A stretch of DNA of 64,000 nt from Chondrosia reniformis (Eukaryota > Porifera > Demospongiae > Chondrillida > Chondrillidae), in contig OX359193.1 of NCBI GenBank assembly GCA_947172415.1, positions 6,690,501 to 6,754,500 of the forward strand, in the 5' to 3' direction. The notes under the pieces are model-generated. The model had not been told where the DNA came from. It made no database searches and saw nothing but the letters and a program-made list of their open reading frames with translations. Shown piece by piece: positions 40,454-63,842 of the stretch (its first letter is position 1; every line of letters begins with the position of its first letter). The translations under genes and the position numbers were made by a program.

Positions 40454-43400
40454 ATGTTAGGAGAGAGAGATTTAAAGTCAAAACTGTTCTTCGTGACGGT
40501 TTTGGTACTACAGCTGCTAATTGTTCAAGGCCAGGAGTCATGTACTGACGCTAAAAGCTATTTCTATGGAGTCCTAGATCTAGACAGCTCTCTGTTATCG
40601 GTGAGACCCACGGAAAGGGCAGGTATGTTCTTACATATTCCTATATTTCTATATTGTATATGAATGTTTACGCACCAGTCATCGAGACTTTGTAATATAT
40701 ATTGTTGTGCTTTGTGTGTACTGTACAGTGGACGAGTTACAAAATTATACCATACAACATTCTTGCCAGATGGTGAACTATATATTTTGATCATATATAC
40801 TTGTATATCATTATAACTTTGCTGTCTGTGTCCGAGATACCCCCCATTTTTACTTATTCTCAGTTGAATTACATGTAGTGTGTGGTTTTTCGAAAAAATA
40901 TCTAATCTGATCGCTTATGAAACCTATTTATATGGTTGTTTTAGACAGGTGGCCGGATTATAAAGGTTTAACCTCTTTTGCTTTTTCCTCTTCGTAATGA
41001 TTGATTCTGGTTTGGCTTTTAATTGCTTTGATTTATAGATTAGCATGAATATACATGTATATAAGCTATCACAGCCATATAGAGCAATAAAAAGGCCTTA
41101 ATGTACATTGTATGATGTACTTAAACCAATCATCCAATGGATCAAAATATTTAGTCTCCTTTTATTGCTACATTCTATTTTATGGCAATGGCTCAATAAT
41201 AAACAAATAATGTGAATGGGAGTCAAGCAGCTGCTGGTAGAGTCCAAAATTGGTTCCAAATTTAAAGGCACATACCCTTTGATAACGTTCATATCAAATG
41301 TATGCCACCTGGTATATATACAGTGCAATACGGGGCAAGTAGCCCTGTATAGCATGGAGTATGCACACAATGTACTTAAAAATAATAATACATGTAGTAG
41401 TAATGAAAATGTAAGTGAAGTATAGAATGACATACAGTGTACGTAAATACTCACTTTGTCTCATAATCAGTAATTTGTGAGAAATGCCTTAAATTTAAAA
41501 ACAAGATAGTAACTACTTCAAGACTCAAAGAGTACACACAGTTGCAACTGGGTCCCTCCTTAAAAATATCCCCCCACCCCCTTGAAGAAATTGTAATAAG
41601 AAACAAACCTTATACTAGGTTGCCCTGTCTATATTTACTATATTGTATTTTGTCTCTCCATGGGATGTTCTCTAAAAGTGTTGTGTTTGCATAATATTTC
41701 ATAGATCAGCCATGTAATCAATCACTGACTTGCTGCACTGAGGCAGCTGTAAGAACACTCAAGGATATAGCCGAGAAGCACAACAAGGGAAGGATACAGA
41801 AAGTAGTTGATTCAGCTGCAAATATTGTTTGCTCTCCAGAACAATATGAAAGTGAGTTCAAAAGAACCAAAACTATAAGTGGGACAGCCAGTTGGTTTAG
41901 GAAGTGCTTTGATGCTATTCATTGTATCATCCAAAATGGAAAAGCCTGTTCTTTAATATTTTAAGGCTGCGCAGTTGTGTCTAGCTATAAGGATTATCTG
42001 ATGTAGTGCAGTTGCAGACTTCCTCTTTGGACTCATATGCTTTCATGTGATCACACCCGTAAGAGTAGGAAAACAGTCTGAAATACCAGGACAGCTACGT
42101 ATATAACTCTGTATAACTAGCTAATCTCCATTATGAAGTTCACCCTTTGTCCTTATTGTAATCAATTTTGTGTCATATGTCAGTCATGTGTATGTACCGT
42201 TTAATATTTTTATAAAAAATGAAATATTTGAAGTGATCACGCCTATGTGGGTGTGACCTAATATCTGCCACCATATGTAAAGGTGAGCTTTGTGTTAGTG
42301 TAAATTGCCTTATAACTATAAATACAACTCTCTATATGATAGTAGTTGATTTTCATTTTTAAAACCGTAAATATCATTAGTGATTTAGTCTGTTGGAGTA
42401 CCCTAGGATGATAATCCACTTTTGTAAGTTTGTTAAGTAAGAGAAATTAGTAAAAGCATTTGCTATATATTCACTGAATTACTTACATTTGATGACAAGA
42501 AGCTAGATAATTATATGACAATGAAATAGGTGGTATCCTCAGTCTCACCAAGACTATACCTAATCCACTTTAGGAAGGAGGGCATTTCTTTCAGATGTAG
42601 GAAGCCTGACTGTTCTAAGATACCATTTCCTTATATGGATATAATTGACATGTACGTACGTGTGGCTAAGGAAAAATTCATACAGAGGGTAGACTATTTC
42701 CTAGACGTACGTATTACCTAGGGAAAGCCTATAGGATTAGGATACAGTTTCATACCAATTATTATTTTCCCATTGGGCCAGATAGCTGTTTACGAAATTC
42801 TACCCATCATCATCAGAGACCCTGAGATCTGCTATAAAAGACTGCATGCACTCTATGCATTTTCATCGTTTCATTTGCTTAAAATGTTTTCCAAATTTTA
42901 CCTTTAGATGCTTTATCTGCCTTTAAACAAGTGGAAAAATTAGCAATTCATGTTGAGATTGAGCAGGCGTTGGGATCTGATCACTTTAGTGAGACTGTTC
43001 TGTTGCCATTTTATAATTTCATTGATGCAGTGGGAGTGTATCTCCAAGGTAACAGAAGCTTGTGCGGGGCAGAGAATTTGTTACCAAATCTTGCAGTCAA
43101 TTTTATATGGTCGCTACTGAAAATTGGAAATGCTGATGACTCAATTAATAAGAGTTGCTTCAGAACATATATACTCAGTAAATACAATGATATCATAAAC
43201 CAAGTCAAAGGTGAAGTGGAAGGCATTTTATTACGTGTCTATCACGTAATCAGGTATAAGACATTGTTATTCAAGGCAGTTGACAGTTTGATGCAGGAAC
43301 CTTGGGCAGCTGAATGTAAGAGTGGTTTGATGCGGCTTCACTACTGTGACGGTTGTAGTGGCTTGCATTCAAATGCAAGTCAAAGGACCCTGTGCTACTC

Positions 43401-46211: not shown

Positions 46212-49200
46212 TTAGACCTTGTACAATTCTGTATATTGATTGAGATCTGGTGGTGGAAAGTTAGGGTCAATAGAAGGTTGCAGATCTGAAGGAGCCTCGG
46301 GATCCATTCTGGTGACTCCAGTATCTACATTGGTACCAGGAAGATTATTGATAACATTGCCGTTCCAGGGTTGTTGGAATTGTTGGTGCCCAAACTGATT
46401 CATATGTACACCAGTGTCCATGTCATCTATGGCAGGGAATTCAGGGTAGTTGGGAGTTGCCACAACACCAGAATCTTGAGATCCCTGCCTGTGATGGTGC
46501 TCACTACCAGAGAGGTATGGATCAGCATGAAGCAGCTGAGATTGGGGTAGTCTTTTATCATGCACACGCCATCCAGGTTGTTGTTGTTGTTGTTGTTGTT
46601 GGGGCTGTTGTTGTTGGTGCTGAGAGAGGAAGGGCAGGCTGTACTGTCTAGTGTGCTGGTTGCCATGGTGAAATCCTAATCCACTACTGCCAGCTCCACC
46701 TCCATTAGCATTACTTCCGGGGCTGCCAATGGGACCACTGATGGATTTGGAATGGGAATGGGAAGGTTGAGGCCCCCATGATGGACGACCATGACTCATC
46801 TGTGGAAAAATAGTAACACAAAACACTCAACCCACATATGTGATCACCAAGATATAGCACTAATACTATCAGATAATTGTGGATATCAAGTAAAAATAAA
46901 AAGAAGGAAAAAATACTTTTTTTTAGTTGTTTGGTTAGATTGCCAAAATATCCCATAAACTATTAAATCTGAATGTTGTTTGAGGCAACTTACAGATGTG
47001 GTTGACTGATCCCATGCAGCTTGTCCAATGGGGCGTGTTGGTGTCATTGCTTGGTGCAAGGGGTGATGATGAGCAGGGGGGGCGTGGTTGTTGACTGATG
47101 CAAATGATCCACTTGGGCTGTTACTCTGTCCAGGTGTGTGAGCAACAGAGTGTATGTTGCGATGAGGACTGTGGGCCCCGGTAAGGGGGTGTTCCCACTG
47201 TGTAGTTCTCTCAATGTGACTACAGAGAATGAGAGTGAATGAATAATAACACAATTACCAACCAGTTCAACTGCTAACTGGAAAACCAGCTACACACTAC
47301 CCATAGGTAAAAGTTGCTATTGGATGCATACATAAAAACTGAACCCTATGATGAGGAAATCCTGGAGGTTTGTAAAGATTTTTGTCTCCACAAAAATTCT
47401 TCCCAGGAACACTCAAAATGCTATATACCTGCATACTGCCTAGCAACCATACAAGTTCACTGTATCTGTGTGGTATGGCAACATCACAGCAAAGGAATTA
47501 TCACCTATTCCAGCTGTAATATATACATGTGCCTACTCTGGTATACCCCATTTTAAAGGTCAGAGATAATCACCAAGAAGTCTGTTTTTTGCATTCTTAT
47601 CTTTCCTTACTGTAGTCAAAGGAAAGGGAAAGCAGTAAACAATTCATTCAAGAAGCCATAGCAGTAAGAGTGAGGAGAAACCAGACAGGTGCCCATCAAC
47701 TTTAGAACCACCCAACTTGCATAACAAGTAGCACAATGTGCACTCAATGTGTGCTATATATCCACTTCAGAATGATACTATTAACCACAAGTGTGTGGTA
47801 ATAGAAATTAAGATCTCACACAATTTTAAGTCACAAGGCAGCTGATGAGAAAAAAATTGGACAAAGTTGTCTTAATATATTAACTCCTATCATTTCCTTG
47901 ACAACTTCAAAGCAAAGATCCCTGTGACTTGTCCTACTGTGATCATATAGAGGAAATCACATAGTTACATGTAACTAAGATAGGACAAAGCATAATCAGA
48001 GAATACAAATTGAGGGGGTGGTGTTATATCCCATAAACTTTCCTATAGTTGGCCATATTTATAAGATCAGGGTAGGTGTTATACAATGATACATATGTAT
48101 GTCTAGGATACAAGAATTGCCTTCTCACAATGGTTTTAAAATAAAACACTCATACAAGAAAATACGTATTACGTATGTAGCAAAAACTTCTCCCTAGAAA
48201 TGGTTCAGTATTCCTTGATTATATAATTTAATTTTTGAAGGGATTTCCTTCAGTATTTCCAAAGTCTGATTTAAGACAAATTCACACATAACACCTCTAC
48301 ACACATCACTCAGGTTACACTGTACAAGTGTGACCGTGTGTAGGTGTGTGTAAATACTACTCAGAACTTCACACACAGAATGGTCCATTAGAATGGTTTC
48401 TGTATTCTGTTTCCCCTTAGCACAAAACTCCTTAAATTTGAATTTTACCTGATCAAGGGAGAAGCCTTGTAAAAGCACCAACCCCTTAAGGAAGGTGCTT
48501 ACTGTAATACATAAACACATAACTAAGGCACTATGTAGATAAACTATTATCCACACACCTGTAGGGTAATTCACAAGCTATACATATATGTATACACAAA
48601 TCATGTGATGTGTTCAGGTATTTAGATTTTACTATATACATACATACATAGCATAGGCCAAGGATTCACAGAAGATCAAGATAAAGAAAAAGACAAAGAT
48701 TCCCAGGATCACTGATGAAGGGTGGAATTCCCAGAAATGGTTGTCTGACCCAGTGGAGAAGAAGATGAAAGAAGGGAAAAGAAGGGAAAAGAAGGGAAAA
48801 GAAGGAAGAAAAGACTCCTGTATCTTCATCCAAAGCTCTCTTCAGGTTTAGTTCCCCTATAGGCTCTTTTACAGAATAGGCATATAGCATGTAGGAAAAT
48901 GGTATCTTAGATTTTTCATATGTATGTACGTACGTATGTACTTCTGTACAGTGCTCCACGACTAAAGAGTACATTTGTAAATAGTGTTTGTTATCTATAC
49001 AGAAGGTACATACATAGGACTCAAAGGTCAAGGTCACACTTGAACTGGAAGAAGCGCTGCAAATCAAACATTTAGATTACTACTTGTAAAGGTACGTGAA
49101 ACACTCAAAGTGAAGTGAATATGGAAAATAAATTGACGTATACACTCAACAAAGTTCAGAGAACTCTGGACCTATATAACCTATAGAAAACCACCTTTTT

Positions 49201-52200
49201 AACTGGTAAATTTTAACCATTTAAACTGGCTTTATGAAAAGGCTCTATACCACAACTAAAAATAGAAGTATGGAGCAAAGTGAAGGTGAATGACACTAAT
49301 GTAAACAGGACTTAAGAGCACCCAAGTCATTACGGCATAGAAACAAGGAAATTGTAAAATTTCACTTTTTATATTCAATGCCTAAAGGGACTCTCAATGA
49401 ACAACCAGTTCAAAGAAGACCAGCTGCCACTCTTATTACTCTAGCTTAAAGAATCACACCATCCTCACCCTACCCTGAAGACCGTCAGCTTTAGAAGCCT
49501 GATTATTGCATCCCCTACAAGTAGGAAAGGCTCACAAAGCTTCTTCCCTCTATGAATGTTTCCATGACAACCAGACAGAAAGTATAGAGAACTAAAATCA
49601 ACAAAATTCATTTAAGGTTTCCCATTAAATCAAAGGTTCCAGTGACACAAAATCTAAACTGATTATATGTAGCTAGTACAAGCCTCCTCTTCAATCCCAC
49701 AGAGTATCTACCACAAACTGGTATCCCACACTTGACCATACATGGCACATTTCTTCAATGACAAGACACAATTCTACAATCTGGTCACTTCATCCAGATT
49801 TACGTACATACATACGTAATTCTCAATCTTCATTCTACTATATACTACTAACTGATTACTATTACCACAACAAGCACACACATACAGATTGCTACAAGAT
49901 CAAATCCAGGCAATTCTGTTCTTCATGTACTTAATCTAGTATTTTCCTTAATCCTAACATCCTCCACCCACAAAATACATGGTCTGGTGACACAATGTCA
50001 ACCTAATGATATAGCAACAACTATGTGGTCTGACGTTACTCAACAGAGCACAGTGAACTTGGATGGTTGGGAACACAAGAACACACATTAAAGTCAAATA
50101 ACTAGCTATATCAGTTAGGCATGGACATGAAGCATGCTTACCACAGTTGACAGAGGCACATACAAACAAGTATATTTACACATAAAATTTAGGTAAATCA
50201 ATACACAAATATATCACAGAAGCTACAATTAAATACAGATAAAAGTGTCTATGTAAATAGAATCTTATTAACAAGTAGAAATGGCAAGACAATCAAAGGT
50301 AGTCATACAGTAATATGTTACTGTCAACTGACCTATGTACGTATATAGTTAAGTTATAAACACATTCTAAGAAAATCAGCCATATCCTTTACACAGAGCA
50401 AAAGTCACACAAAAGAGTGACTTACCATTTGAGTAATCTAAAACCCATTTTCCTACATACGTACTATGTCTATTATACAGTAAAGGTCTATAGGGAACTA
50501 AACCTAATGAGATCTTTGGATGAGGATACAAGAGTCTCCTATATATTCTCCACTGGGCCAGACACACTTACAGGAAGCACAAAGAAGCAACTTTTTGCCC
50601 ACAAGACTGACTAACCGTCTACAGTCTTGCTTCCTCTTACAAGGCAGTAATGGACACCTGATACTGCCTGGCAGCTGATGTCTAACAGCCGGGGGACAAA
50701 GAGGAGTTGGGTGCAGGTGTGGAGGACAGACACATTAACTTTGTGTAGGGGTCCTTAATAAGGAACAACTCCTCAAGACTTGGAAACTGTATCATAATAA
50801 CATAATGGCCAAAGATTGTACACAAGCCCGCATACGGTGATGAGTGCACTACAAAACTACATGAGCCTTTATCTGTGGTCTAACATACATTATGTACAAT
50901 AAGCAAACGGTCTCTATATTAGTCTTTATACTTACCTTTACAAGGTTAAATAAACAGTCTTTATTGCATGTACACATTAGCAAAAATTGATATAGTAGAT
51001 TATTTAATATTAAATTTGGCATATATGGTACAAAATTACGAGAATATCAATTTCAATTCATTTAAAAACAAAGTGACAGGGAATAAAATAATTCAAGATG
51101 AGTTCCACATTGAATAACTGCTCCACATACTGTACAAATTATTGAAACGTTATCGAACGACTTGGGAGACGAGCTCTACTGGTACTGGACGGTTAGGGCA
51201 AAACTCGGCCATTTCTCATATCTTGGAATTTAATAATGTAAGCGTGCACAAATAAGTTCAATCAACTTTATTTATGTACATACATAATATGAAATGTAAA
51301 CTAAGTATAAAAACAACAATGCTGAACAGTGGACTACCTACCTACGTACATGTACATAAACTGAAACAGCTGATCGTACGTACTACGTACATGTTCACAA
51401 AACATACTGTTTTAAAACAACCTCACTGATAAGGCTTTGTGGGATTGCAACTCTGTAGACCATGCAATATACATAATATATTCTTTTTATATGAGCTGAT
51501 GGGGACTTTCCTGGTTTAAATTATAATGATACAGTCTGGCACATTAAACAATTATTTGATTCCAGACAAACTGCCTTCAGAGAGGAACAAAGCAATAATA
51601 TCCCCCAATCCTCCAGTCAAGACATTTTGTGGTTACATTACAGGAGGTAGCACCCTAACCATACAAAGTCTTGCCTCAGTGAGTGAAGCCTTGGGAGGGC
51701 AAGTGCAAAGCCACTAAAAAGTGAAGTAAGCCATGACATAACAATATTTAAAAGACTTATCTCCGACTGGCATAACAGTTCATTAGAAAGTAGCACGTCA
51801 TCAGATGACACAATAACCAAACATATAAAAGGATAAAAAATTAATGAACTAAGATAGAAAAACAATTTGGTGTGTTTGAAAGGCTCACAGCACTTTTTAT
51901 AACATTTCTGAGATTCTGCAATGAGGTAGATTCAATGGGCTGGTCTTAAATTAGCTTACCACATCAACAGTCAAAAATATTGGATGTTCTGGTAACTATA
52001 CTTTAACATTATTTTCCAATGAATATCATGACATATATCATTCCTTTATCCTACATCTAAATGTCAAGCCAAAACCACAATTTATAAGTTTGATAATTTT
52101 TAAAAACATCTCCATAAAAGAAATACATTGTCCACAGTTGTACATTGACTGAAGGAAATGCTGCAACTTCACACTAGTACTATATACGGCACTTGCAAGG

Positions 52201-53999: not shown

Positions 54000-54050
54000 T
54001 TATCATGTTTGCTGATGAAGACCTACGGGTTGAAACGTCCTATTATCAAT
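54000..54050 (+). ncRNA. Hammerhead-ribozyme-like motif (isolated)
   Basis: CTGATGA (54,012-54,018), hairpin GACC-TACG-GGTT with a UNCG-class loop, GAAAC (54,032-54,036), then GTC directly after. The stretch ACGT between GAAA and the cleavage-site C is self-complementary, so helix III would have no loop. Stem I pairs poorly, so this is probably a decayed copy. Confidence 0.45.
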
Positions 54051-54334: not shown

Positions 54335-54395
54335 CAAAGATACAAGGAAAGATTTCAGGGTCACTGATGAAGGGTGGTATTCCTAGAAAGATACA
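54335..54395 (-). repeat. Family D repeat, fragment D5
   Basis: In the plus direction reads CAGGGTCACTGATGAAGGGT then GGTATTCCTAGAAAG, the 5' half of the hammerhead-like core; the 3' strand of stem I is lost. Confidence 0.7.
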
Positions 54396-54734: not shown

Positions 54735-57700
54735 TCATGGCTGCCCTTGCTGTAACTGATACTGCATTGGGAACACAGAAGGTGCTGTGACAGCAACCTG
54801 CACAAAGTGATTGCCTCCGCTTCCTCCTTGAAACTGGCCTGTAAAGGTTGGAGATTGGGGAACACCATAACCTCCACCAAAGTGGTAGAAGGGAGTTTGG
54901 CCGTTTGGTGACATTGACACAGCTATTGGACCACCGCTGGTCTGACCATCCAAGTTTAAGACTGGAAAGTTGAGAGCTGATGTACTACAAATAATTAAAG
55001 AAATCAGAAGTGACATATTAGTAACGCTAATATGGACATCGGGACTTAATGTCACTGAAATACATGGACATAAAATAAATCCATGTATTTCAGTGACCAT
55101 TAAATCCCTATGTCCATGTACGTATGTATTTCAGTGACCATTAAGTCCCTAATAGTATGTCTATGTACGTATGTATTTCAATGACCATTAAGTCCATATG
55201 TCCATGTCCCTCTCCTCTTTTATGTGCTCAGCTTACCTGTAGTACATTGGATAGGGAAAGAGGGGAGCAGGAAGGGAGGAGCCATACATAGAATACTGTT
55301 GCTGTTGCAAGGATGGTTGAACCTACAGAAACATACAGTCAAAACAATATATGTAACAATTATGAACACTTAAGAAATATATGTATGTATATGGAGCTCT
55401 ATATGTAGTAGTTTAGATGCCACAGTATAATAAAGAAACATTAGCTGCCTAGAAGGCACTGAAATAATGATATGCCTTAAGGTAAAGCAAGAAATGTTTC
55501 AAAATTACAAAATAAACTTTTCACCACTGTAAAACTTACCAACCATAACTGACAATAATATAATCTGTATATACTCATACACTGTAAAACCATATATTGT
55601 TTTGGTCCTTCAGTTTAGACTATACATACATACATACGTACCTGTTGCCTTATTGGCACATCAAAGTTTTCCTTTCCCCAGGAACACTGTAAGAAAGATG
55701 AAGAGAATTACAATACATACAACAAGTATAAATGTCTTCCATTGGCATTCTTCAAATGTTTACTAGCATAAAATAATTCTTTACTAGCGCCATCTCTTCT
55801 AATACACAGAATCCAGTAAAACTCTATATCAATTATATATGTATAAACACCATTTTCCTACATGTCTGTGATTAGAATGTACCACAATGCAATTATAGAG
55901 CTTTGGATGAGGATATAGTCTTCTTCACTTTCTTTTTCTCCTCCATTGGGTATGTGTAGAATCCTTTAAACCTCTACTAGTTTACACATGCAACAAATCT
56001 CTGTTTACCTTAACTATCTGCCCTTGTAAAGTCTGTCCATTCATAACACTGATAGCACCAGCTGCGATATCATGTGACTCATATTTGACAAATGCATATC
56101 CCTTTTCTGGGAATATCCTTAGGGCTAAAACAGAACCATATTGCTCACAGTGTTTTCTTAGCACCTTATCTATTGAATGAACAAGTTGAAAATGAAATTT
56201 ATGTATATAATATAAGCCTTGTTAATGTAAACATAGATAACCCATTAACCAGACATATGTAAGTATAGTGTTGTGATTCCATGGCCAAGAAAGTAGTAAT
56301 TCTGGTAGTCATGGAGAAGATCACGGACCACGTACATAGAAAACTGTATCTACACTGGCTCATTCGGAAGGTCCCCTTTGTCAACAGAAGGTTAGATAAC
56401 ACTTATAATTCCAAATAAATGGTATTGATAGAACATCAAGCAACTAAAGGGTCATAGTCAAGTATGTAAACATTCTATGAGGTATCCACATACATACATA
56501 CGTACCTATGCATTCCATACAATGTACGTATGTACTTGTATTCCTACACATACGTACATATACGTACGTATATATTATGTAATTTTACTTAGGAAGGTCA
56601 AAATCCCATCCAATAAAGTAATAACTAACAAGTACAATCTGCTTGTCTCTTGTCTCTTTTTGAAAGTATCAGTTTTTACTAACAATTAGCAGGAAATACA
56701 GTAATAGACCAAGTGTCCATTTAGTAGGCGATAGAAACCCAAACAAGGCCAAGTGTCTCCCAGTCTAGAGTGTGTTAAAGAGCCTTCTAAGCTTATCAGC
56801 TTAAGTACAATGATAAGGATACCTTTAGTAAAGGGGTAACTGTGAGAATATTGCTTCTCAGGATAACTAGGTATAAACAAAATCACTTGAATTCCTTACA
56901 GAGCCAGTAACCATGGAAATGGACCCAATATGGTGGGTTTGGCATGTCATACAACAACCTCTTAGCATAAGTGTTACAACAGAAGCCTTCAAACTAGTTT
57001 GATCCCCTTAAGGTATAAGGGAATTTGACTAACAGGACATGCCCTCCTGTCATAAACAATACAATACTTAATTTACCTAAACCAAGATTGCACTCCTAAG
57101 AAGTATAGTCAGTTGGACAAGGTCTATTATAGGCGTATACAAGTAAATCTTCAGGAATATATACCTCACCAAGTAAATATATCCTTTGTGCCATCTCTTA
57201 CCTACATATACACTTAATGACCCAATTAATATGTCACATCATATCGCACCTGATATGGAGGATGTGAGATTACCAATGTAGACAGTGGAGTTGTGGCTGC
57301 TGCTCTGTGCTGCTATCTCCTCAATACTGTGAGCTCTTGACTTCTTGATAGCCCAATTGGCCTTTATTGGCTTGCCATTTAGAGCCTTTCCATTAGTCCT
57401 TAATATGGCTTCCTCTGCATCCTAAAACATGTCCACAAAGTACAGGCTACTACATACGTATATGTCTACGGTTGTGCAATCAATATCTAGAAGTCAGCCA
57501 TTAAAAATGGCTGTTTTGAAAGTTGTCTTGATGAGCAAATAAGGTCATATCATTTTGGAAGTACATACGTATTTTTCCAAAAAAATCCATAAAACAATAT
57601 TTAGTATCATATTATCTCTTTCTGCGTATGTACATCATCAGTTAGTGTGTGCAGGATACAAAAACGTCATATGTTATGTTTACTGTGTCAGCAGCCATTT

Positions 57701-62580: not shown

Positions 62581-63554
62581 GTAAGATTTTTAATACATCG
62601 GACATGAAGAGTTAAAATTACTCCAGTATACACCGTATGTGTGTCTTATTTCTCCTATTACGAACCAACTAGTACTTGATATAAAGTACCATTGGTAAAT
62701 AGATGAACCTATAGACGCCTTGTTCACACATAGACAATTATACCTTTATTAGCCCGGTATACGCGTTCTGTGTGCGATGTTTGTGGCTTCACGTCTGAAT
62801 AGTATGTTTAAAATTAGCCATTTTGAGAATCTAATAGCATATTAATTAAGAAGCTTACATGATCACAAATAATTTTATAATCTGCACTTTTATGGAATAC
62901 ATACGTATCAGAGAGTACTCTCTAAGTAGGAATCTATTATACAATTGGGTCTATAGCGATACAAATATATTAATACCTTACTGTTCTTAAAGAGTCAGTA
63001 TTTAGAGAAACATTCTAAGCATGTCTATAAGTTTACATGAATATGAAAGTAGCTACTTTTATGAATGACAAAAGTAATAATCAAATATGTATATGTTATA
63101 GTGTTAAGTGTGAATGCAACCGTGTATGGACTAATGCATTCCCCTTATTTATTTTACTGCATATATACATGTATCTTGCAAATATCCATATTTTGTCGGT
63201 ATTGTAACACTAATACTTGTTAGATCCTAAATTCGAATCAAATTTGTTCATATCTTGTATATACGTTTACAGAGTACATTCCTGCGATCGTTGTTTCGTG
63301 TGTAAAAGGCATATATTTGCATATGAAAAGTTGATTACAGGGAATTCTCCTTGCTTTAAGGCCAACCCCTATAATACCTCAATGGACTTTCCTTTTAACA
63401 ATATCCCAAGGCAATGGAGTATTAATATACATGTGAGGGCAACCCAGTTCAATATCATGATTGAAAAAGATGGCAGTTCAATTTTCTTTAAGGTGGCAAA
63501 TGGTTTAGTAAAGGTCAAAGGTCATATATAAATGTAGAAAAGTAGTGTTTTATA

Positions 63555-63785
63555 TGAAAAATCTAAGATACCATTTTCCTACATGCTATATGCCTATTCT
63601 GTAAAAAGAGCCTATAGGGGAACTAAACCTAAAGAGAGCTTTAGATGAAGATACAGGAGTCTTTTCTTCCTTCTTTTCCCTTCTTTCATCTTCTCCACTG
63701 GGTCAGACAGCCGTTTCTGGGAATTCCACCCTTCATCAGTGATCCTGGGAGTCTTTGTCTTTTTCTTTATCTTGATCTTCTGTGA
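63555..63785 (+). repeat. Family D repeat, copy D7
   Basis: Best-preserved copy. Starts ATGAAAAATCTAAGATACCA and includes AAGAGCCTATAGGGGAACTA and CTTTAGATGAAGATACAGG. On the minus strand it carries the hammerhead-like core (63,696-63,749): GGATCA, CTGATGA, GGG...CCC, AGAAAC, GGCTGTC, TGACCC. Confidence 0.85.
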
Positions 63786-63842
63786 ATCCTATGTAATTAA
63801 TTTGAATTCTTCTTTAACCTTATATTTATGTTATGCAGAACT

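Follow-up and report, generated by a model that had tools for sequence, protein, structure and literature searches.

In canonical hammerhead ribozymes, a G10.1-C11.1 pair sits at the base of stem II. Among Penelope-like retroelements, the Naiad and Chlamys elements that are the subject of Craig et al. 2021 reportedly have an N-terminal endonuclease and are said to be without canonical hammerhead motifs. A CxC motif between the endonuclease and the reverse transcriptase (RT) is a criterion for the Naiad type. Minimal hammerheads are known in Penelope-like elements, and the available part of one account calls their in vivo activity a mystery (PMC7761336); for hammerheads of this minimal type I kind in Penelope-like elements and Terminons, the same text points to Cervera and de la Pena 2014 and Lunse et al. 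2017. For the Anolis element PAc, the accessible sections of PMC11167929 report that the hammerhead is dispensable for insertion in vitro, that reads neither start nor stop at the hammerhead site, and that reverse transcription is initiated at an internal position of the RNA rather than at the 3' end. The axolotl hammerhead HHR_Amex2 has a U.U at the base of helix II, and a repeat carrying this U.U cuts 22% in an hour, according to the portion of PMC7229834 at hand. Here, we describe family D, a repeat of the sponge Chondrosia reniformis, whose motif is probably an atypical dimer-type hammerhead that cut the RNA of its host element and has weakened in the young lineage.

The window, a 64,000-nt stretch of the C. 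reniformis genome, contains two copies of the ~243-bp family D unit, which forms the 3' end of a pseudo-LTR. Copy D3 (48657-48920, + strand) belongs to the young subfamily and carries an internal A/G-rich insertion; copy D7 lies at 63554-63790 on the - strand (core 63745-63700, octamer ACGGCTGT at 63714-63707), and the two are 88.6% alike over 262 bp. The first-pass annotation had read hammerhead-like strings in a set order, and these are borne out in D3 (48706-48751, +) and D7 (63745-63700, -): GGATCA, CTGATGA, A-GGG-loop-CCC-A, GAAA, an octamer, C, and TGACCC. On the + strand of D3, the 5' strand of stem I (GGATCA, 48706-48711) is followed by the CTGATGA box (C3-A9, 48712-48718), the stem II region (48719-48733; A, GGG at 48720-48722, loop, CCC at 48730-48732, A), the GAAA box (G12-A14 and A15.1, 48734-48737), the helix III octamer ATGGTTGT (A15.1 to U16.1, 48737-48744), and the 3' strand of stem I (TGACCC, 48746-48751). 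Based on hammerhead anatomy, the scissile bond is predicted 3' of C17 at 48745 (48745..48746, +; repeat nt 89/90). The outer A.A of stem II occupies the canonical G10.1-C11.1 place. Stem I of D3 and D7 had been read as GGATCA/TGACCC, which pairs at five of six positions and has one A.C mismatch.

The remaining copies in the window are less complete. The decayed copy D2 (42775-42822, -) retains the order GGGTCT CTGATGA..TAAACAGCTATC TGGCCC that had been described for it, but its core is broken: T replaces G12 in the GAAA box, and the inner position of stem I holds T.T. D5, considered half a copy, is a unit fragment (54348-54389, +) with nothing past GAAA, and only the 3' part of the unit is present at 50426-50537 (-). 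The octamers ATGGTTGT, ACGGCTGT, and ACAGCTAT read as annotated. Their proposed self-complementarity holds in full for ACGGCTGT, counting G.U pairs (-9.7 kcal/mol), and in part for ACAGCTAT (-4.1 kcal/mol), but not for ATGGTTGT, which forms no stable duplex with itself (+1.4 kcal/mol). A descriptor written after D had been seen (CTGANGA, stem II of at least 3 bp, GAAA, a self-complementary 4-, 6-, or 8-mer, H17, and at least 5/6 pairs in stem I) matches D3 and D7 only within the window; as copies of one family, these count as one independent sighting. Random sequence of like composition gave 28 matches in 1.166e9 strand-bases, or ~0.003 expected per window.

Across the genome (117 Mb in 15 contigs), the ~243-bp unit has about two thousand matches, 1831 by a core-blind pattern and 2152 by a 3'-end pattern. 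Copies share the start GCCAAGG and the end TTTTTCAT, with unrelated flanks outside. Starts fall at nt 1-7 in 47 of 63 copies, about fifteen of them inside longer copies; this set comes mostly from hammerhead-stretch searches, and at least two members (L118 and L125) end at the edge of the stretch examined. A 12-bp target duplication was recognized by eye at L085. The pattern CTGATGAN{6,30}AAACRGCTRTC (CTGATGA..AAACRGCTRTC) matched 1153 + 1151 = 2304 times, compared with 0 for the reversed-pattern control; by our own count among the matches listed, 25/100 were of the canonical kind and the remainder D-like. We also observed a shortened D copy directly 3' of a few TTAGGG repeats (L152) and an array built from part of the D unit (G000:C2:756964-757401), in which eight copies like AATTGGCCCAGTGGAGAAG recur, many in 25-bp steps.

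Two subfamilies were defined from 46 distinct 62-nt rows, drawn from 48 distinct strings among 100 matches listed, with repeated strings and most indel forms left out. In this set, the older subfamily has stem I GGGTCA/TGGCCC, fully paired (6/6), and octamer ACAGCTGT, and the young subfamily has stem I GGATCA/TGACCC, with one A.C (5/6 paired), and octamer ACGGCTGT; the young-lineage motif looks weakened by this A.C. The A.A beside stem II, previously flagged as atypical, is confirmed as the consensus of both subfamilies (15/21 old and 24/25 young distinct rows), and other combinations at this place are A-U (2 distinct rows), A.G (3), and G.A (2). It had been suggested that stem I keeps pairing as bases change. 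This is the case at one position (U-G old, U-A young), but the next goes from G-C in the old to A.C in the young subfamily. Altogether, one pair is seen as C-G, U-G, and U-A, another is broken in the young lineage, and the copies are very alike; we found no convincing stem covariation among D copies. In old rows, core and other sites both show 0.052 changes per site, so that core conservation above the remaining sites is absent there; the nominal values for young rows are 0.022 in the core and 0.048 at other sites. Because dead insertions are expected to decay freely, these rates say little.

How D relates to hammerheads was assessed feature by feature. The CUGANGA and GAAA boxes occur in order, and a stem I of about 6 bp surrounds the core (6/6 in the older consensus, 5/6 in the young). 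Helix III would form by pairing of two octamers, with 8/8 pairs in the predicted fold of the older consensus dimer; the young octamer is self-complementary with G.U, but the minimum-energy fold of the young dimer does not pair it in this way. At the base of stem II, A.A replaces G10.1-C11.1, and the Rfam hammerhead search, run on the window and on 20 D loci, gave no match at E<=10, whereas canonical hammerheads elsewhere in the genome do match RF00163. Because the motif fails on G10.1-C11.1 and on Rfam, we file it as a hammerhead-like variant rather than as a canonical member of the class. A hammerhead origin is nonetheless likely, because boxes, stem I, octamer, place, and genomic company agree. 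The first-pass annotation is partly supported: it named the right kind of motif, a Penelope-like type I hammerhead with a minimal helix III and dimer action. The Rfam search went against it and covariation was not convincing, whereas the 5'-end pile-up at the predicted cut site and the dimeric fold of the older consensus favor it.

Monomer fold energies of the D consensuses are no better than those of shuffles (z 0.34 and 1.10), compared with z -2.47 and -3.25 for two canonical motifs from the same genome. For two strands of the older consensus, the predicted minimum-energy fold is a dimeric hammerhead layout, with stem I between strands, stem II within each strand, the octamers paired with each other throughout, and the core bases free (10/10 on both strands), a topology shared with the two canonical motifs. 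The young consensus dimer gave no hammerhead fold (forced -21.9 vs best -36.4 kcal/mol). Dimer energies are also ordinary, as 174 and 238 of 300 shuffles are as low. Thermodynamic stability was therefore rejected as evidence for a ribozyme, shuffles being as stable.

The genome contains other hammerheads. The RF00163 type I model gave 73 scored matches, 51 of them over the 34-bit cut-off (best E 4.7e-8) and some paired ~354 bp apart, with canonical cores such as CTGATGAGTCCTAATAAGGACGAAACAGCTGTC or CTGATGAGCCCTAAAGAGGGCGAAACAGCTGTC; the type III model gave 46 genomic matches, none over its cut-off. The octamer ACAGCTGT is common to the canonical type I hammerheads examined and the older D copies. 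L029-L058 are retrozyme-like repeats that contain type I hammerheads and carry this older-D octamer, some of them arranged in tandem ~354 bp apart; they are candidate passengers of the Penelope-like element. In these 30 hammerhead loci, we found no link to D beyond the octamer, the exceptions being nearby D insertions or fragments (L046, L032, and L056) and matches no longer than 24 nt.

A second hammerhead-like family, CTGATGAAGACC..GGTYGAAACGTC, occurs at 54012-54035 of the window and at 305 genomic places; its pattern matched 155 + 150 times (one match D-like), vs 3 in the reversed control. Its core carries an additional A following A9, and its helix III is 4 nt long. Among 43 distinct strings from 100 listed, with repeats, one D-like string, and forms with a longer stem omitted, stem II of this family has 10 cells changed on both sides vs 2.9 in shuffles (0/500 reach 10), but the number of pairs with two-sided change, 2, is ordinary (306/500 shuffles). 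The window also includes a long inverted repeat at 55032-55117 with several microRNA matches, all below Rfam cut-offs.

The first-pass annotation regarded family D as a free non-coding repeat, a view that we replace: judged by its sequence context, family D makes up the 3'-terminal ~243 nt of the pseudo-LTR in an autonomous Penelope-like retroelement. At one locus, a coding region (two overlapping frames in that copy) lies between two direct repeats of 726 bp that are 98% alike, and each repeat ends in a D unit, the two units lying 3501 bp apart. The coding region has a GIY-YIG motif near the N terminus, then RT motifs (YIDD). Six copies extend upstream by some 780 bp or more, via the promoter into the reverse-transcriptase frame, and in long copies TATATAA sits 30 bp upstream of unit nt 1. 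Together with the starts at nt 1-7 and the target duplication at L085, this placement fits an RNA start near nt 1 and reverse transcription from the end of the unit. A genome search with the first frame of the element yielded 74 matches, several in 997-aa open frames, the matched part being stop-free. In six elements whose frames are open over a long stretch, 12/12 pseudo-LTRs carry the identical core; in four decayed relatives, it is present in 5/8 stretches with mismatches allowed, and one more (L125) ends at the examined edge.

Within the 973-residue protein, residues 102-135 matched Pfam PF01541 (GIY-YIG; E 2.1e-4, 22.0 bits), just below the cut-off of 22.6. RVT_1 matched a piece of the protein weakly (E 0.0018, 18.5 bits vs a cut-off of 29.6) and had no match at E<=1 on the whole 973 residues; YIDD and GIPMGT are visible by eye. 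A CEC between the endonuclease and RT fits the CxC motif, and the domain order fits a Naiad-like host element. Searches of the protein against Pfam and PDB sequences gave weak or no useful matches, and its AlphaFold structure models were uninformative (mean pLDDT 33.2 and 32.2).

The many ~243-bp copies with preferred ends and unrelated flanks would also suit an independent SINE-like repeat that had borrowed a hammerhead and was unrelated to the Penelope element. This reading is extremely improbable: the unit ends both of the near-identical direct repeats of a coding element, six copies run upstream via the promoter into the reverse-transcriptase frame, and no tRNA gene was found in the window. 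It was rejected on this upstream continuity. In L002 and L005, a lysine-rich frame stays open over much of the unit, which, along with the ordinary fold energies, would favor chance resemblance or a stretch kept for coding or protein binding. These frames meet stops within or just behind the unit and never reach the main ORF. The descriptor, although post hoc, is expected to match far less than once per window, the octamer is common to the Rfam-scoring hammerheads of the genome, and the motif sits in a Penelope pseudo-LTR, a known place for such motifs according to the available part of PMC7761336. We consider chance or coding very unlikely and rejected it on the expected count, the shared octamer, and the pseudo-LTR place.

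Copying of RNA that had been cut after nt 89 should yield insertions beginning at nt 90. A pattern for such ends, with nt 90 preceded by three bases all differing from GTC, matched 57 + 48 = 105 times genome-wide in raw counts, and its reversed control 0 times. A control pattern for ends at nt 86, where the sequence likewise begins with TG and only two preceding bases are barred, gave 12 raw matches, one of them in L162. At nt 91 without T before it, there were 23 raw matches, nine of which were one repeated GTG form; nt 83 gave 8 matches and is a poor control, its pattern barring CAT flanks.

Forty nt-90 loci, picked from 100 listed, were checked, skipping variants (TGT and AGA) and the 8-row array at C2:757 kb and including just 2 of a 13-row run at C2:2.5-3.6 Mb. 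True ends, without upstream D sequence beyond 9-10 nt words, were found at 34 of the 40, which is no rate for all 105 because the loci were chosen to avoid duplicates and variants; the other six are internal rearrangements or variants. Two pairs of ends share flanks, leaving 32 independent ends. Among the 100 matches listed of the 105, at least 19 are local duplicates, 8 rows lie within 0.5 kb at C2:757 kb, 13 form the one-kind run at C2:2.5-3.6 Mb (two with a shared flank), and 6 are TGT/TG rows that look like C89 deletions, a form seen once among the core-blind matches. By type, 59 of these 100 rows are TGG (older), a share that duplicates inflate, and 41 are TGA (young), vs 31/100 of the older type among the core-blind copies listed (own count). 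Cutting, if it took place, was perhaps stronger in the older lineage, with its full stem I.

The junctions bear on the exact position of the end. Among the 100 rows listed, ACA/T is the commonest junction (40 rows), and 6 rows read CAT/T. The T in ACA/T may belong to the target, so that the end could be nt 91 rather than nt 90. By our own reading, T90 is not preceded by CA in 13/34 checked true ends, four of these being CAT/TG; since T90 completes no CAT in these 13, nt 90 is favored there.

Copies were also sampled by their 3' end, covering 82 of 100 listed of the 2152 matches: 40 were examined individually (22 picked for having no core listed near and 18 taken consecutively without choice) and 42 were read from pattern listings. 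Of the 40, 26 start at nt 13 or later, with 2 starts at nt 90, 2 at nt 83, 1 at nt 86, and 1 at nt 92; one of the two nt-90 copies has a stretch like D nt 1-16 directly upstream. The 5' ends of these copies (L131-L170) cluster also at unit nt 160-172 (8/40). Four chimeric copies (L181, L182, L183, and L199) join unit nt 90 to another unit position, a structure that template jumping could produce if the RNA ended at nt 90.

Because of the pile-up of 5' ends at nt 90, past cutting activity in living cells seems to us more probable than its absence. The opposing view is that the motif is a dead relic, hammerhead by descent and inactivated by the A.A before the present copies, with the nt-90 ends due to a transcription start at G91, a reverse transcriptase stop, or short-homology joining to CAT-ending targets. 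Consistent with this view, Rfam misses the motif, both subfamilies have the A.A, the young subfamily has the A.C as well, ACA/T leads the junctions (40/100 among the matches listed), and further 5'-end clusters exist. Yet nt 86 offers the same TG start and has 12 matches vs 105 at nt 90, and a CAT target cannot explain T90 in the 13 of 34 checked true ends. A polymerase halted by the fold would presumably stop near nt 96, ahead of stem I, rather than at the inner edge of that stem. A dead relic is in our view rather unlikely.

On the reading that we prefer, a hammerhead that cut the RNA of its element, a TATA-box promoter in the pseudo-LTR would start RNA at about unit nt 1, and nt 50-95 of this RNA would make up a minimal type I hammerhead whose helix III lacks a loop. 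Two motifs, from both pseudo-LTRs of one transcript or from two RNAs, would pair via octamer ACAGCTGT, and cleavage would follow nt 89. From the 3' end of the unit (..TTTTTCAT), reverse transcription would proceed to the RNA 5' end, and the resulting short copies would begin at nt 1-7 (uncut RNA) or nt 90 (cut RNA). What the sequences themselves show is the anatomy of the element, the preferred 5' and 3' ends, the presence of the motif in both pseudo-LTRs, and the excess of 5' ends at nt 90; catalysis, dimer action, and timing are what we infer. The fuller proposal, that in an N-terminal-endonuclease Penelope-like element an A.A variant cuts in vivo as a dimer and the cut 3' product is reverse transcribed, is one that we put forward tentatively.

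Our literature searches, with subscription papers outside their scope, found nothing joining Penelope-like, Naiad, and hammerhead, and nothing joining hammerhead ribozyme, retrotransposon, truncated copies, and cleavage site. Within the literature searched, the new points are the motif in an N-terminal-endonuclease element, an A.A form of it that may number two thousand copies, and the reading of copy ends as traces of cutting. Counting the 5' ends of genomic copies at a predicted cut site makes in vivo activity testable in any genome. If our reading is true, it extends hammerheads to a Penelope group said to be without canonical ones, adds a natural core variant invisible to the Rfam model, and means that the genome keeps a countable record of ribozyme activity.

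By the criteria for these groups, the D host shares with Naiad and Chlamys elements its domain order, the CxC between endonuclease and RT, and pseudo-LTRs; those elements are said to be without canonical hammerheads, while the D host carries a non-canonical one. As described in the available part of PMC7761336, the minimal hammerheads of Penelope-like elements and Terminons resemble D in their place in the pseudo-LTR, tandem arrangement, minimal or missing helix III, and proposed dimer action; D differs in its A.A at 10.1/11.1, the N-terminal GIY-YIG of its host, and being missed by RF00163. PAc, a Poseidon element of Anolis, likewise has a hammerhead at the pseudo-LTR/ORF border and an internal start of reverse transcription, but its endonuclease is C-terminal and its ORF begins at hammerhead stem II, according to the accessible sections of PMC11167929. 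Retrozymes consist of tandem 150-450 bp non-coding units, each with a type I hammerhead. The D copies examined are mostly single, have preferred ends, and are part of a coding element, and we therefore do not consider D a retrozyme. The ~354-bp tandem hammerhead units of this genome, comparable to metazoan retrozymes as presented in the portion of PMC7229834 at hand, share octamer ACAGCTGT with older D and have the same in silico dimer topology. Unlike D, these retrozyme-type hammerheads have G10.1-C11.1 and score over the Rfam cut-off, and they otherwise share no sequence with D in the 30 loci. In the same portion of PMC7229834, the U.U at the helix II base of an axolotl hammerhead that cuts provides a parallel to the A.A of D.
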